A DNA stretch of 5,917 nt, taken from positions 1 to 5,917 of the forward strand of contig CAJVXD010000088.1 of NCBI GenBank assembly GCA_913009675.1. The letters are read 5' to 3'. This document shows, piece by piece, positions 127-5,365 of this stretch. The position numbers and the translations under genes are program-made. Origin of the DNA: an uncultured bacterium. Its GTDB lineage: Bacteria; Omnitrophota; Gorgyraeia; Gorgyraeales; Gorgyraeaceae. The notes below the pieces were generated by a model, which did no database searches, was not told where the DNA came from, and saw only the letters and a list, made by a program, of their open reading frames with translations. The stretch's first letter is position 1. Every line of letters begins with the position of its first letter.

Positions 127-906
127 GGGATAGAGGATATGCGGATAGTCAAGTACGACAAGAAATACTTGCTGGTTGGATGCGGCAAGATCAATCCTCC
201 GTTCAAAGGTGTGAATGCGGATCGGATTGTAGCTTACTCAACAGAAGATTTTGTCAACATTACTTATCATGGTATGGTCAGGCCCTTTGATTCACGCAAT
301 GCCGCTCCATTTTTTGAGCCGGTAAATGGCCAGCACTACATGCTGTTACGCCTTCATTCTAATATCCACCTGGATTTTCTTGAAGCCGGCATGGAGCAGT
401 TGCTGAATCCTTCCAAGTACACAGAATATTGGGAGAAGATCTATGACCGACGGAACCAGAGTCTGCTTTTAGAAAATGGCCTCTACCCTCACGAAAAGGA
501 AAAAATTGGTTTAGGTCCTCCTATAGTCAAAACTGATAAGGGTTGGCTGCTCATCTATCATGCTGTTGGTGAGATAGAAACTGATATTTGTAAAGCCTAT
601 GGGTTGGCAGAGAAGATTGAAAGAGGATATTCTATCTGTGCAGCCCTTTTGGATCTAAACGATCCCAGAAAGGTTCTTTGTCGAACCAGAAATCCAATCT
701 ATATCCCTTCAGCCCCGTATGAATTATATGGTAACGATCAGTATTTAGTGGACGTGCCTGCAGTTGTTTTTCCAGTAGGTGCTATCGTCCGAAAAGGCAA
801 GCTGCTTGTCTATGCCGGATCTGCTGATAAATACACTATTCTCTTAAGCTGCAAGCTTGATAGCCTAGTTAATTATTTGTGGAGGCATTGCAGGAGTGTT
901 AGGTAA
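127..906 (+). CDS. GH130-family beta-mannoside phosphorylase, 5'-truncated
   Basis: This is the C-terminal 259 residues of a glycoside hydrolase family 130 protein, a five-bladed beta-propeller. The family mostly phosphorolyses beta-1,4-mannosyl linkages (mannosyl-glucose or mannooligosaccharides), releasing alpha-mannose 1-phosphate in the cytoplasm. Numbering from the first whole genomic codon, the fragment opens with G1-I-E-D4, the family motif holding the catalytic Asp. The motif reads GIEDMR where GIEDPR is usual. Later landmarks are GLGPPIVKTDKGW (Lys about 135), IYHAV (His about 145), CAALLDLNDPRKV, VVFPVG and a YAGSADKYT-like ending. The Lys and His correspond to phosphate-binding residues of characterised phosphorylases, which favours phosphorylase over hydrolase. 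Only the N-terminal blade is missing, because the contig ends in adapter; the apparent upstream ATG at 43 lies in artefact. The stop TAA overlaps the convergent HD gene by 8 nt. Substrate cannot be set from this fragment. Confidence 0.88.
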   Translation, partial: GIEDMRIVKYDKKYLLVGCGKINPPFKGVNADRIVAYSTEDFVNITYHGMVRPFDSRNAAPFFEPVNGQHYMLLRLHSNIHLDFLEAGMEQLLNPSKYTEYWEKIYDRRNQSLLLENGLYPHEKEKIGLGPPIVKTDKGWLLIYHAVGEIETDICKAYGLAEKIERGYSICAALLDLNDPRKVLCRTRNPIYIPSAPYELYGNDQYLVDVPAVVFPVGAIVRKGKLLVYAGSADKYTILLSCKLDSLVNYLWRHCRSVR

Positions 907-1453
907 TGCAATTTCTTACAAGCGACTCAAGATATTTATCATCGTAACGAAAATCAGCTACAACCTTTTTCAGATCGTTCGATAATCTTTTGAGCCCCCA
1001 CATGCACCTACTTTTTGTCTCTTTCTTATTATTCCTGGTATAGTATAAAGGTAGATTGACTTGAAAGAAAGAGATAGCGTCGGCACTCTTGAGGAGATCG
1101 GATCTTTTGTCGCCTCCTGCTTCGTGACGGCAGACGAGCGAATAGACATCTTCAATAAATTCAGGCCTTAACTTACATTCGATCATAATCTCTTTTAATA
1201 TTACAGAGCTGTTTAAGGCATGAGCTTCTTTAAACTCATCATAACTCTTATAATCTTGGCGCTTTATTTTTCGTTTGTTGAGTGCCCTTTCAATATCATG
1301 TCCCAACGCGGCTATACGTAATGCCTCGTCAGCATCCGGGTTTAACTTTAGGAGCCATTCGAGTGTATTCTCTGAATGGACAGGGTCTTCCGTAACAGCA
1401 GATAAGGCGAGGGTCTCTTTAATCCTTTTCTTTAGACATTCAATGCGATTCAT
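899..1453 (-). CDS. HD-domain metal-dependent phosphohydrolase-like protein
   Basis: This 184-residue soluble protein has the HD-superfamily ligand series: H26 (VHSENT), H52-D53 (GHDIER), H78 (KEAHALNS), H110 (CRHEAGGD) and D125 (SADAISFF). HD proteins are mostly metal-dependent phosphohydrolases acting on phosphomonoesters, nucleotides or cyclic nucleotides. The complete set suggests an active enzyme. No signal peptide or membrane segment is visible. It is the last gene of the ino1 operon. Its ATG lies inside the end of the IPCT/DIPPS gene (14-nt overlap), and no good Shine-Dalgarno precedes it, so translation probably depends on ribosomes finishing the upstream gene. My inference is that it removes the terminal phosphate from phospho-DIP, or from another inositol-phosphate product of the operon. 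A nucleotide hydrolase or regulatory role is also possible. I do not recognise a named subfamily. Confidence 0.8.
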   Translation of the reverse strand: MNRIECLKKRIKETLALSAVTEDPVHSENTLEWLLKLNPDADEALRIAALGHDIERALNKRKIKRQDYKSYDEFKEAHALNSSVILKEIMIECKLRPEFIEDVYSLVCRHEAGGDKRSDLLKSADAISFFQVNLPLYYTRNNKKETKSRCMWGLKRLSNDLKKVVADFRYDDKYLESLVRNCIT

Positions 1454-2774
1454 TTCTATAACACACGGCCACTCTTCTTATATTTTCTATATTCATTAAC
1501 ACCGCGATAAATACAAGCACGAAAAACGCTTGATTTGTTACTGCTCCAATAAATATTATAAACATCCTCACGTCTCGTCCTATCCTGATCCCGAAAGGTT
1601 TACCCCGAGAAAATTTAGCTTTCATCAGACCATCATATTTGTCAGCCATATAGCTATTCATAAAGGATCCGATAATAGCCAGAAAACCCACCGGCCATGC
1701 AATAAGCCCGCTACCTGAGCTGAATGCATAATAGCTCAATCCAAAAAGGATGAACGCATCTGCATAACGGTCCAGGCAGGCATCAAACCACTTGCCGAAA
1801 TCCGTTTCTTTGTACTTTAATCTAGCTACCTCACCATCGCAACCATCTATAATAGACGATACCTGTACAAGGATACCACTGAGAAGAAGGCCAATGTAAT
1901 TACCCAAGAACAAAAGCACCGAGGCTATTAAAGAAACAAGAAAGGAAACAAAAGATATCTGATTAGGAGTAATGTTGGTTCTTAAAAGATGTTTTGTGAT
2001 TTTTGTAGAGATGGGCCTGTTAATGTATCTTGACACGGGTCCATCAGAGAGTTTCTTTAACCTACCCAGCATATATTTTTCAGCCTTTTTAAGGGTGTCC
2101 TCATCATCTAAATCTAACCAAAATTTATTCCTGATGTCGAATGCTTTAGCCTTGTTTCCTTCAGCCAGTATCTTTATGGCACCGGAAAGACTTGAGTCGT
2201 TATTTCTGGCTGTACTTCTTTCTATGGCTGTAAAGATGATAGGGGAACACAAAAAGGCACCTGTATCATAAGCACTATATCTACGTATACCCTTGCCTAT
2301 ATCAACAATGCCTTTGTCTTCAACATAGACCCTGGTCACATCACCTATATCTACCAGGGAATTTGAATTTATATTGTAATCAACCGCCAGGATTACTTCT
2401 CCATCATCTATTTGCTGAGATTGAAGTTCCTCAAGTATCTTTTCGTCAAAGAGGTGATCTACCATTAGGAGTATAAAATTTTTATCTAACAGGTGTTTTG
2501 CTTTAAGAACTGATAAACCATTGCCTTTTTCCCACTCTTCATTTATGAGGTGGGTTATCTTTATGTTTTTATGCTTGCCGAATCCATCTAGAAAAGACCT
2601 TACTTTTTGGCCATTGTAGCCGGTAACAACATAGAAGTCAGAAAGACCACATCTTTTTGCGGTTAATATTGCACGTTCAATAAGGGATAATCCAAGGAGG
2701 GAGATGAGAGGCTTAGAATCCCCTCTTTTTGACAATCTGGTTCCTTGTCCTGCAGCAATGATAAGACATTTCAT
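1440..2774 (-). CDS. Bifunctional CTP:inositol-1-phosphate cytidylyltransferase / DIPP synthase
   Basis: This is a 444-residue fusion. Residues 1 to about 235 form a sugar-nucleotidyltransferase: AAGQGTRL at 7-14, KP at 21-22, GNGLS at 84-88 and a metal-binding Asp in MVDHLFD (D106). Residues about 250-440 form a CDP-alcohol phosphotransferase with a perfect signature: D310-x2-D313-G-x2-A-R318-x8-G327-x3-D331-x3-D335. Several hydrophobic spans lie around 272-290, 292-309, 336-352, 355-375 and 402-427. Domain order and length match the archaeal/thermophile IPCT-DIPPS fusion, which makes CDP-inositol and condenses it with inositol 1-phosphate to phospho-di-myo-inositol phosphate at the membrane. 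It starts 5 nt after ino1, which supplies its substrate, and overlaps the HD gene by 14 nt. No strong Shine-Dalgarno is seen. A different acceptor alcohol, for example in an inositol lipid pathway using CDP-inositol, cannot be excluded. Confidence 0.92.
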   Translation of the reverse strand: MKCLIIAAGQGTRLSKRGDSKPLISLLGLSLIERAILTAKRCGLSDFYVVTGYNGQKVRSFLDGFGKHKNIKITHLINEEWEKGNGLSVLKAKHLLDKNFILLMVDHLFDEKILEELQSQQIDDGEVILAVDYNINSNSLVDIGDVTRVYVEDKGIVDIGKGIRRYSAYDTGAFLCSPIIFTAIERSTARNNDSSLSGAIKILAEGNKAKAFDIRNKFWLDLDDEDTLKKAEKYMLGRLKKLSDGPVSRYINRPISTKITKHLLRTNITPNQISFVSFLVSLIASVLLFLGNYIGLLLSGILVQVSSIIDGCDGEVARLKYKETDFGKWFDACLDRYADAFILFGLSYYAFSSGSGLIAWPVGFLAIIGSFMNSYMADKYDGLMKAKFSRGKPFGIRIGRDVRMFIIFIGAVTNQAFFVLVFIAVLMNIENIRRVAVCYRNESH

Positions 2775-4042: not shown

Positions 4043-5365
4043 TTAACTCTCTATAGCCTGTAAAGCAGGCTCATCTTTTTTGATGCTCCCGTATTTTTTC
4101 TCCTGCCGTTTCTTGATCTCTTGCTTCATCTCATGCCTTAAAATATTCAAATATCTAAAACCTCTTATTTTTCTAAGATTCGGCTCTATCTCCATGAGGC
4201 TTGCCGCGTTCCATCGAAGAATCTGGTTTGAATTCTGCCAGTAGTCTACTTTATTCGTAAACTGGGCAATGTGACTCATGATGGATTCTATGCAGTTGGT
4301 AGAATTCAGGCTCCTGCATAATTCAGGAGATAAACCAAGCCTATGAAGAGTCAGGGTTTCTTCCAATCCTTCGGCAAGGCTATTGGCTGCTGATTCATTG
4401 ATAATCGAGAGTCTTTTATGCAGTGCTTCCAAAGATTCTCTTGCCTCTTTGTAAGAGGTTTTTCTGTAAGCATATTTTAAGTCTCTTTTACAGAGTTCTG
4501 CCTGGAAGTTCGAGAGATAACTTGTGACGTTTTGCTGCTTATGCCACACACAACGCTGTACGAAGCCGTATTCTTGGAATTTTTGTCTTATAGCTTTTAT
4601 TATCCCTTTTGAGCCGTCTATGATAAATAGAAGGCCTTCTTTGTATCTTAATCCTCGTTCGATTAATCTATCGAGTAATTGCCCTGTAACTAATGATGAT
4701 TCGGAATGAGACTGCTCTATATCCAGGATGAACTTTTCTCCGTCTATGGTTATGCCTAAAGCGACTAATATTCCTTGATCAGCATACCTTTTGCCATCAA
4801 TGAATACGCATATAAAATCATATGCTTCCAATGAACGCATTTTAAGTCTCTTTAAAGAGCCCAAGGTGTTTTTCTTTAACCTCTTTGAGAGGTTTGATGG
4901 AGACAGGCCGAATACCTCCGGCACAAGCTCAACGGATTCTTTATACTTACGCGTGCTTATGCCGTTTAATAGCTTCAGCATGGTTTTTCTGTCACATTGA
5001 TACGGAGACTGCAGTTTTTGATACATCTCTAAGGGTATCTCAATATTATTGTTTTTATTCCTGACTCTTGGGACCACGATAGGGACTTTTTGATCCTGTA
5101 AATACACTGAACCGGGGTTATCTCCCCAGCGGAGGTTTTCTTTTCCGTGCCTGCGTTTTTCACCTGCCAGCATATCAACTTCTCTTTTTAATTTCTCTTC
5201 AATGGTTTTTAAGCCGCAAGGTATTAGAGCTTGTATTAAAGCTACTGATGTATCCAGATCATCTGTATCCATATTCCTTAACATCTCTTGGGCGCCCTTT
5301 CGTTTTTCCGAAACTTTTATCTTCCCTTTACCCCTGGTTCTTGGTATACTTATTTCGACAGGCAT
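4043..5365 (-). CDS. IS256-family (mutator-type) transposase
   Basis: This 440-residue DDE transposase is full length for the family and has no internal stop or frameshift, so it may be active. The N-terminal part (about 1-170) is the DNA-binding and multimerisation region. The RNase H-like catalytic core has D190 (FIDGKRYAD), D250 (FIIDGSKGI) and E360 (NSTNCIES), with the typical QRCVWHKQQN block at 270-279 before the helical insertion. The first Asp is followed by Gly, whereas DA is common in classical IS256 members, so it belongs to a divergent branch. The ATG at 5363-5365 is fixed by a strong AAAGGAGG Shine-Dalgarno 5 nt upstream. A 6-bp hairpin near the stop (AGCCTG/CAGGCT, 4055-4071) lacks a clear U-tract, so read-through towards the ino1 operon, which has the same orientation, is possible. 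Confidence 0.95.
   Translation of the reverse strand: MPVEISIPRTRGKGKIKVSEKRKGAQEMLRNMDTDDLDTSVALIQALIPCGLKTIEEKLKREVDMLAGEKRRHGKENLRWGDNPGSVYLQDQKVPIVVPRVRNKNNNIEIPLEMYQKLQSPYQCDRKTMLKLLNGISTRKYKESVELVPEVFGLSPSNLSKRLKKNTLGSLKRLKMRSLEAYDFICVFIDGKRYADQGILVALGITIDGEKFILDIEQSHSESSLVTGQLLDRLIERGLRYKEGLLFIIDGSKGIIKAIRQKFQEYGFVQRCVWHKQQNVTSYLSNFQAELCKRDLKYAYRKTSYKEARESLEALHKRLSIINESAANSLAEGLEETLTLHRLGLSPELCRSLNSTNCIESIMSHIAQFTNKVDYWQNSNQILRWNAASLMEIEPNLRKIRGFRYLNILRHEMKQEIKKRQEKKYGSIKKDEPALQAIES

Follow-up and report, generated by a model that had tools for sequence, protein, structure and literature searches.

In the pathway to di-myo-inositol phosphate (DIP) of hyperthermophiles, Ino1, an inositol-1-phosphate cytidylyltransferase (IPCT) and a DIPP synthase are followed by an IMPase-like phosphatase, which was reportedly proposed for the phospho-DIP step by Rodionov and colleagues in 2007. 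The first-pass annotation of the locus described here had regarded this step as one to which no gene is firmly assigned. The step is not wholly unassigned, since such a phosphatase was proposed before. Thermotoga maritima is described as accumulating DIP and as making beta-1,2-mannosylated DIP (PMC3124967), an extra IMPase gene near IPCT/DIPPS is mentioned for a hadal thaumarchaeote (PMC7265257), and ANME-1 archaea are reported to carry DIP genes (PMC4335971, citing Meyerdierks 2010). The window, i.e., the whole stretch of 5,917 nucleotides that was analyzed, shares ino1 and a fused gene for IPCT and a CDP-alcohol phosphotransferase (CDP-AP) with the hyperthermophile pathway, whereas its third gene encodes an HD protein instead of an IMPase, and its CDP-AP domain belongs to a different clade.

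The locus and its proteins

The three genes follow each other on the minus strand in the order ino1, IPCT/CDP-AP and HD, with the HD gene being the last one (Table 1). The first-pass annotation had located the HD reading frame correctly but had left the strand, which is the minus strand, unstated, and the ORF coordinates confirm what it had claimed about the overlap of the HD gene with the IPCT/DIPPS gene and about ino1 at the head of the operon. Just upstream of ino1 lies a gene for an IS256-family transposase (window 4043-5365, minus strand; 199.5 bits at a cut-off of 150). At the other end of the window both halves of one adapter sequence occur as exact matches at positions 59 and 91, after a T-rich run, and we take this adapter at positions 59-124 to be Illumina P7. 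The first ~124 bases of the contig are likely a library artefact, which probably cuts the GH130 gene at its 5' side.

Table 1. Features of the locus with their positions in the window.
Feature	Position	Strand	Basis or remark
GH130 mannoside-phosphorylase-like gene	127..906	plus	Pfam GH130 102.8 bits; possible accessory of the solute pathway
HD/DUF4202 gene, 184 aa, ATG at 1453	899..1453	minus	ORF; probable phosphatase for what the adjoining transferase produces
D125 codon, predicted metal ligand	1079..1081	minus	invariant 101/101
H110 codon, predicted metal ligand	1124..1126	minus	invariant 101/101
H78 codon, predicted metal ligand	1220..1222	minus	invariant 99/99
H52-D53 codons, HD motif	1295..1300	minus	each invariant 99/99
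H26 codon, predicted metal ligand	1376..1378	minus	invariant 95/95
Overlap of transferase gene and HD gene, 14 nt	1440..1453	minus	ORF coordinates
IPCT/CDP-AP fusion gene, predicted phospho-DIP synthase, 444 aa	1440..2774	minus	ORF, PDB matches
CDP-AP domain, residues 241-444	1443..2054	minus	complete signature
IPCT domain, residues 1-240	2055..2774	minus	2xme and 4jd0 matches
ino1, inositol-phosphate synthase, 368 aa	2780..3886	minus	Pfam Inos-1-P_synth 125.7 bits

The HD protein passes the Pfam cut-offs of both DUF4202 (PF13875; 64.7 bits at a cut-off of 35.1, residues 20-173) and HD (26.9 bits at a cut-off of 22), and it has the six-ligand site and the hydrolase fold matches in common with the DUF4202/HD superfamily. 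All ligands named by the first-pass annotation (H26, H52, D53, H78, H110, D125) are present. They are invariant wherever they are aligned (Table 1) among 101 HD rows, consisting of the window and 100 further genes, eight of which are second fetches. In the predicted structure (pLDDT 94.7) the protein adopts an HD fold, the best Foldseek match of the model is an HD-fold cyanamide hydratase (E 0.02), and its fold matches include HD hydrolases, phosphodiesterase (PDE) catalytic domains, YpgQ with ADP, and MESH1. MIOX and PhnZ are absent among the fold matches listed, an absence that excludes nothing; the ligand order H-HD-H-H-D is presumably the ligand pattern of these two enzymes, and the six-ligand set cannot tell a hydrolase from a diiron oxygenase. 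Searching the PDB by sequence with the HD protein yielded chance matches only, the Pfam search gave no match to PF00459 (inositol monophosphatase) at E<=1, and a protein search gave 589 matches, the best 120 of which are all close relatives. The Pfam name DUF4202 carries no function. Literature searches, with most subscription papers beyond their reach, found no paper on DUF4202 and none joining di-myo-inositol with an HD domain, and a search for a phospho-DIP phosphatase gave unrelated papers only among the matches listed. Within DUF4202 the subfamily of the window is tied to IPCT/CDP-AP genes, whereas an HD relative (34.5%) found in Thermomicrobium roseum is part of an unrelated catabolic cluster. 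Furthermore, two genomes of the window's phylum (L005 and L006) contain HD segments that share 36-39% identity with the HD protein of the window and are embedded in very long reading frames, 7201 and 3902 codons in length, respectively.

The ino1 product scores 449 bits with TIGR03450, which is under the cut-off of 638. The fused enzyme contains the Pfam domains NTP_transf_3 and CDP-OH_P_transf, but since it reaches 284 bits at a cut-off of 580 with NF041135, the bifunctional equivalog of the Thermococcales, it is not filed as that equivalog. Its PDB matches are the IPCT/DIPPS of Archaeoglobus fulgidus (4mnd, E 1.5e-50), to which it is similar over the full length, and AF2299 (4o6m, E 3e-47). 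The IPCT domain matches the A. fulgidus IPCT 2xme with 81.8 bits and 4jd0 with 48.7 bits, and the CDP-AP domain contains the complete signature D-x2-D-G-x2-A-R-x8-G-x3-D-x3-D. An RxxR motif (residues 400-403) and R434 are invariant in 88 of the 88 rows of the HD clade, and R434 may be the counterpart, by position only, of the acceptor arginine R191 of RsPIPS. The closest solved CDP-AP domain is that of AF2299, with a profile score of 201.9 bits compared to 105.2 bits for the A. fulgidus DIPP synthase, and in the CDP-AP tree AF2299 is sister to the window's clade, whereas 4mnd falls into another one. AF2299 is described as using CDP-glycerol (PMC4634129), and its four close relatives in our data set (L277, L279, L284, L286) have no IPCT match, unlike the fusion of the window.

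Coupling of the HD gene to one transferase clade

GTDB contigs were scanned with an alignment of 17 HD proteins, which led to 114 confirmed places; the 80 best ones were retained. By their MAG labels these 80 HD loci belong to some 25 phylum-level groups, archaea included, although some of the labels may be due to mis-binning, since many loci lie on short MAG contigs. The pair is also found on long contigs, namely of 2.54 Mb (G904), 2.29 Mb (G1134), 689 kb (L084), 107 kb (L053), and 97 kb (L021 and L060). CDP-AP sequence was detected by tblastn directly upstream of HD and on the same strand at 76 of the 80 loci, in two of them (L014, L059) as a short piece only. Two of the loci without it (L029, L085) start less than 100 bases from the contig end, and the true exceptions are L080, which has ino1 but no CDP-AP, and L088, which has neither; whole-genome searches for both revealed no IPCT/CDP-AP at E<=1e-20. 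At 65 HD loci a gene preceding CDP-AP is present, and at 44 of them this gene is ino1. In most pairs HD overlaps the synthase gene, and the overlap, counted from the first aligned HD residue, amounts to exactly 8 nt in 44 of the 95 pairs measured, eight of which are second fetches. As the pairing is kept at 76 of 80 loci from many phyla, chance is excluded. The first-pass annotation had suggested looking for homologues beside IPCT/DIPPS genes across phyla and would have given up its proposal if they showed no such association; the association is there. Two loci contain tandem IPCT/CDP-AP genes (L070:3293-6101 and L081:4221-7002), and the CDP-AP domain of the first copy in L070 is extremely divergent (branch 2.94).

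The same coupling is seen from the side of the transferase. The IPCT/CDP-AP protein was searched in four phyla, with HD carriers as search centres, and was found in 3 of 270 genomes of the window's phylum (counted at E<=1e-40), 59 of 246 of the phylum of an ANME-1 genome, 4 of 294 of the phylum of a planctomycete, and 38 of 395 of the phylum of a deltaproteobacterium, which makes 104 genomes in total. Twenty-nine of these have a transferase of the window's CDP-AP clade, and in 26 of the 28 resolvable ones the HD gene follows directly downstream (22 of 24 if the four search centres are excluded). In one of the remaining three the contig ends at this point (L213), and in the two others (L195 in genome G1029, L212 in genome G892) the CDP-AP of the clade is present and HD is undetectable. 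The other 75 genomes gave 78 loci, of which two partial ones without a called CDP-AP domain (L221, L225) were dropped, and none of the 76 loci left outside the clade (73 genomes) has an HD gene, with three of them ending right after CDP-AP. In a whole-genome HD search of 80 genomes, HD was found in 24 of 27 genomes of the HD clade compared to 1 of 49 others (Fisher p 1.8e-15, kinship ignored), the only case outside the clade being a 111-aa piece in G876; the remaining four had been included on other grounds and were already known to carry HD. This search also revealed the HD gene of L199, which the gene caller had missed. It is therefore very likely that HD and the transferase of the window's clade are functional partners. 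A third CDP-AP clade (L236-L241) occurs in the phylum of the ANME-1 genome, for which no HD, HAD or IMPase neighbour was found, the IMPase neighbours having been sought with seven seed proteins, so that more remote ones may have escaped detection. L238 carries a PfkB-like kinase gene in its ino1 operon, and L239 has a similar gene of 305 aa.

Exchange of the HD protein for HAD phosphatases

In a CDP-AP tree of 161 rows all 83 HD-labelled rows, including the window, fall into one clade of 88 (support 0.983), and none is found outside. A separate clade of nine (support 1.0) comprises five proteins (L014, L190-L193) in which the IPCT-CDP-AP fusion ends in a C-terminal HAD phosphatase domain, an archaeal locus (L245) in which a separate HAD gene of this type comes after the transferase, two members without an adjoining HAD, and one ending at the contig end. 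All six HAD-bearing cases contain the motif DFDGT, and the two tested with Pfam HAD_2, L191 and L245, score 72.2 and 77.1 bits, respectively. These fusions share the type of IPCT and the operon logic of synthase and then phosphatase with the window, but HAD is fused in the place of HD, the CDP-AP domain belongs to a different clade, and the next gene is of the IMPase family in three of five (L191, L193, and L014, the latter with 92.5 bits in Pfam). The next gene in L192 is Kdo-kinase-like, and L190 ends at the contig end. IMPase-family genes were also seen between ino1 and the transferase gene of a planctomycete (L226, 79.6 bits) and, encoded on the other strand, in the vicinity of L018 and L205, and in L051 a HAD piece and an IMPase-family gene come after HD.

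The tree of the IPCT domains differs from that of the transferases, as the five HAD fusions nest inside the HD-type IPCTs. Both trees were built without the eight re-fetched loci, and the tree tests were run on chosen subsets, i.e., 56 of 155 rows for IPCT and 62 of 161 rows for CDP-AP. On the IPCT tree of the 56-row IQ-TREE run, eight changes are required to explain the label of the whole HAD clade, at least six of them forced by starred branches, whereas in the 62-row CDP-AP run one change each is sufficient for the HD and the HAD label. A grouping of the five fusions in the IPCT run and a placement of L014 with its IPCT neighbours in the CDP-AP run are both rejected with AU p-values of 0.0047 and 0.0007, respectively, which are to be taken as indicative because the trees were "quick" ones and the five-row group was named after the first FastTree had been seen. 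Since the IPCTs of the HAD fusions nest among those of the HD type, the phosphatase follows the transferase and not the cytidylyltransferase, and this is the chief argument for HD and HAD each working on what their own transferase makes. L014:2051-7567 contains ino1, the IPCT-CDP-AP-HAD fusion, an IMPase-family gene, a 112-aa CDP-AP-like stretch and an intact HD gene, and from its sequence it looks like a swap caught in place.

Probable function of the HD protein and nature of the solute

Taken as a pathway, Ino1 would convert glucose 6-phosphate into inositol 1-phosphate, the IPCT domain would activate one inositol 1-phosphate to CDP-inositol, and the membrane CDP-AP domain would transfer the inositol phosphate onto a second inositol 1-phosphate, giving phospho-DIP. 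Finally, HD would hydrolyse the terminal monoester of this phospho-di-myo-inositol phosphate, which yields DIP. We assume with a probability of roughly 0.62 that the HD protein is the phosphatase which removes the terminal phosphate from phospho-DIP as the product of the adjoining transferase; metal binding, hydrolase rather than oxygenase chemistry, and the substrate are predicted here. The earlier proposal that HD supplies the missing phosphatase thus holds with respect to the partnership, given the wide pairing and the change from HD to HAD with the switch of CDP-AP, but HD is not the general enzyme. DUF4202 was found in none of the 14 genomes used as controls, which include T. maritima, so that other DIP makers finish the solute otherwise, and HD is a lineage-specific partner. 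It is on balance favoured, if only by a little, that we are dealing with a swappable module, in which a transferase and its own finishing phosphatase (HD with one clade; with another HAD, fused or adjacent and sometimes accompanied by an IMPase-family enzyme) are exchanged beneath a shared IPCT, and that HD would be the first dedicated phospho-DIP phosphatase and this the first function for DUF4202.

Alternatively, an IMPase encoded elsewhere could perform the dephosphorylation, and HD could be a phosphodiesterase that breaks down the finished diester or adjusts its pool in some other way. Of 53 HD-carrying genomes, 45 contain IMPase-family genes over the cut-off, as do 20 of 21 genomes of the HD clade or the HAD type. 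Such genes lie beside some CDP-AP genes and beside the IPCT/DIPPS mentioned for the hadal thaumarchaeote (PMC7265257), and the fold matches include PDE catalytic domains. However, PF00459 occurs in 14 of 14 control genomes, so that the presence of the family decides nothing, and being near-universal it was dropped as a discriminator by presence or absence. In the window's own genome (1.3 Mb) no IMPase-family gene was found, which is not used as evidence since this genome is 73.6% complete. The overlap of HD with the synthase gene in most pairs and the HAD phosphatases in the HD slot of the sister modules speak against an IMPase acting instead, and a degradative enzyme is not expected to track the transferase clade so strictly, which makes this explanation rather unlikely.

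A second alternative concerns the solute, as the product could be another inositol phosphodiester, with HD still acting as terminal phosphatase. DIP is the natural reading of ino1, IPCT and CDP-AP, but it is itself presumed, because the CDP-AP domain is nearer to AF2299 than to the A. fulgidus DIPP synthase; the sister position of AF2299 and its CDP-glycerol donor (PMC4634129) point in the same direction. In contrast, the IPCT-like N-terminus and ino1 point to CDP-inositol as donor, and six archaeal operons (L028, L031, L036, L041, L042, L049; five labelled ANME-1 or Methanophagales, one Methanosarcinales) contain a GT4-like glycosyltransferase and a GH130 gene between ino1 and synthase, which fits a mannosyl-DIP-like solute. 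In L041 this region is L041:1153-3463, the contig of L028 starts inside the glycosyltransferase gene, and L019 and L051 have no glycosyltransferase/GH130 between ino1 and synthase. The GH130 fragment of the window, convergent to the operon, shares 68% identity over 256 aa with that of the ANME-1 locus L041 and best resembles mannobiose-phosphorylase models, far under their cut-offs. GH130 is also found on L055, L057, and L091. GH130 together with the glycosyltransferase in operons suggests a glycosylated, mannosyl-DIP-like solute. Another phosphodiester is unlikely, and the final solute is presumably DIP, perhaps mannosylated.

It is improbable that HD converts inositol 1-phosphate to free inositol and that the latter is the real acceptor, as it is in the earlier four-step version of the DIP pathway, which is described with an inositol monophosphatase step before the condensation (PMC1224877). 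The acceptor-side RxxR and the C-terminal arginine are invariant in the clade, as in enzymes taking inositol phosphate (with R434 and R191 compared by position only), and draining a substrate common to both half-reactions would be wasteful. A nucleotidase clearing CMP or CDP-inositol side products would agree with the small nucleotide-acting HD proteins among the fold matches (YpgQ with ADP, MESH1), but is very improbable, as every CDP-AP releases CMP and the IPCT is shared, which leaves the ties of HD and HAD to their clades unexplained. Many of the HD carriers come from groups known to be anaerobic, such as ANME-1, and the alternative partner is a HAD phosphatase, so that a diiron oxygenase of the MIOX or PhnZ kind, with the inositol moiety as its target, can hardly be expected, despite a MIOX-like ligand order and a substrate that would be an inositol.

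If HD is indeed the phosphatase acting on phospho-DIP, the phosphatase step that is still unassigned in DIP synthesis would gain concrete genes, and DUF4202, a family without a functional name, would gain a function. A stress-solute pathway known best from hyperthermophiles would then be present as a compact cassette in many uncultured bacteria and archaea, including the methane-oxidising ANME-1. Moreover, there would be two phosphatases without homology to each other, each tied to a transferase clade of its own, which could be exchanged to probe how phosphatase and substrate are matched.
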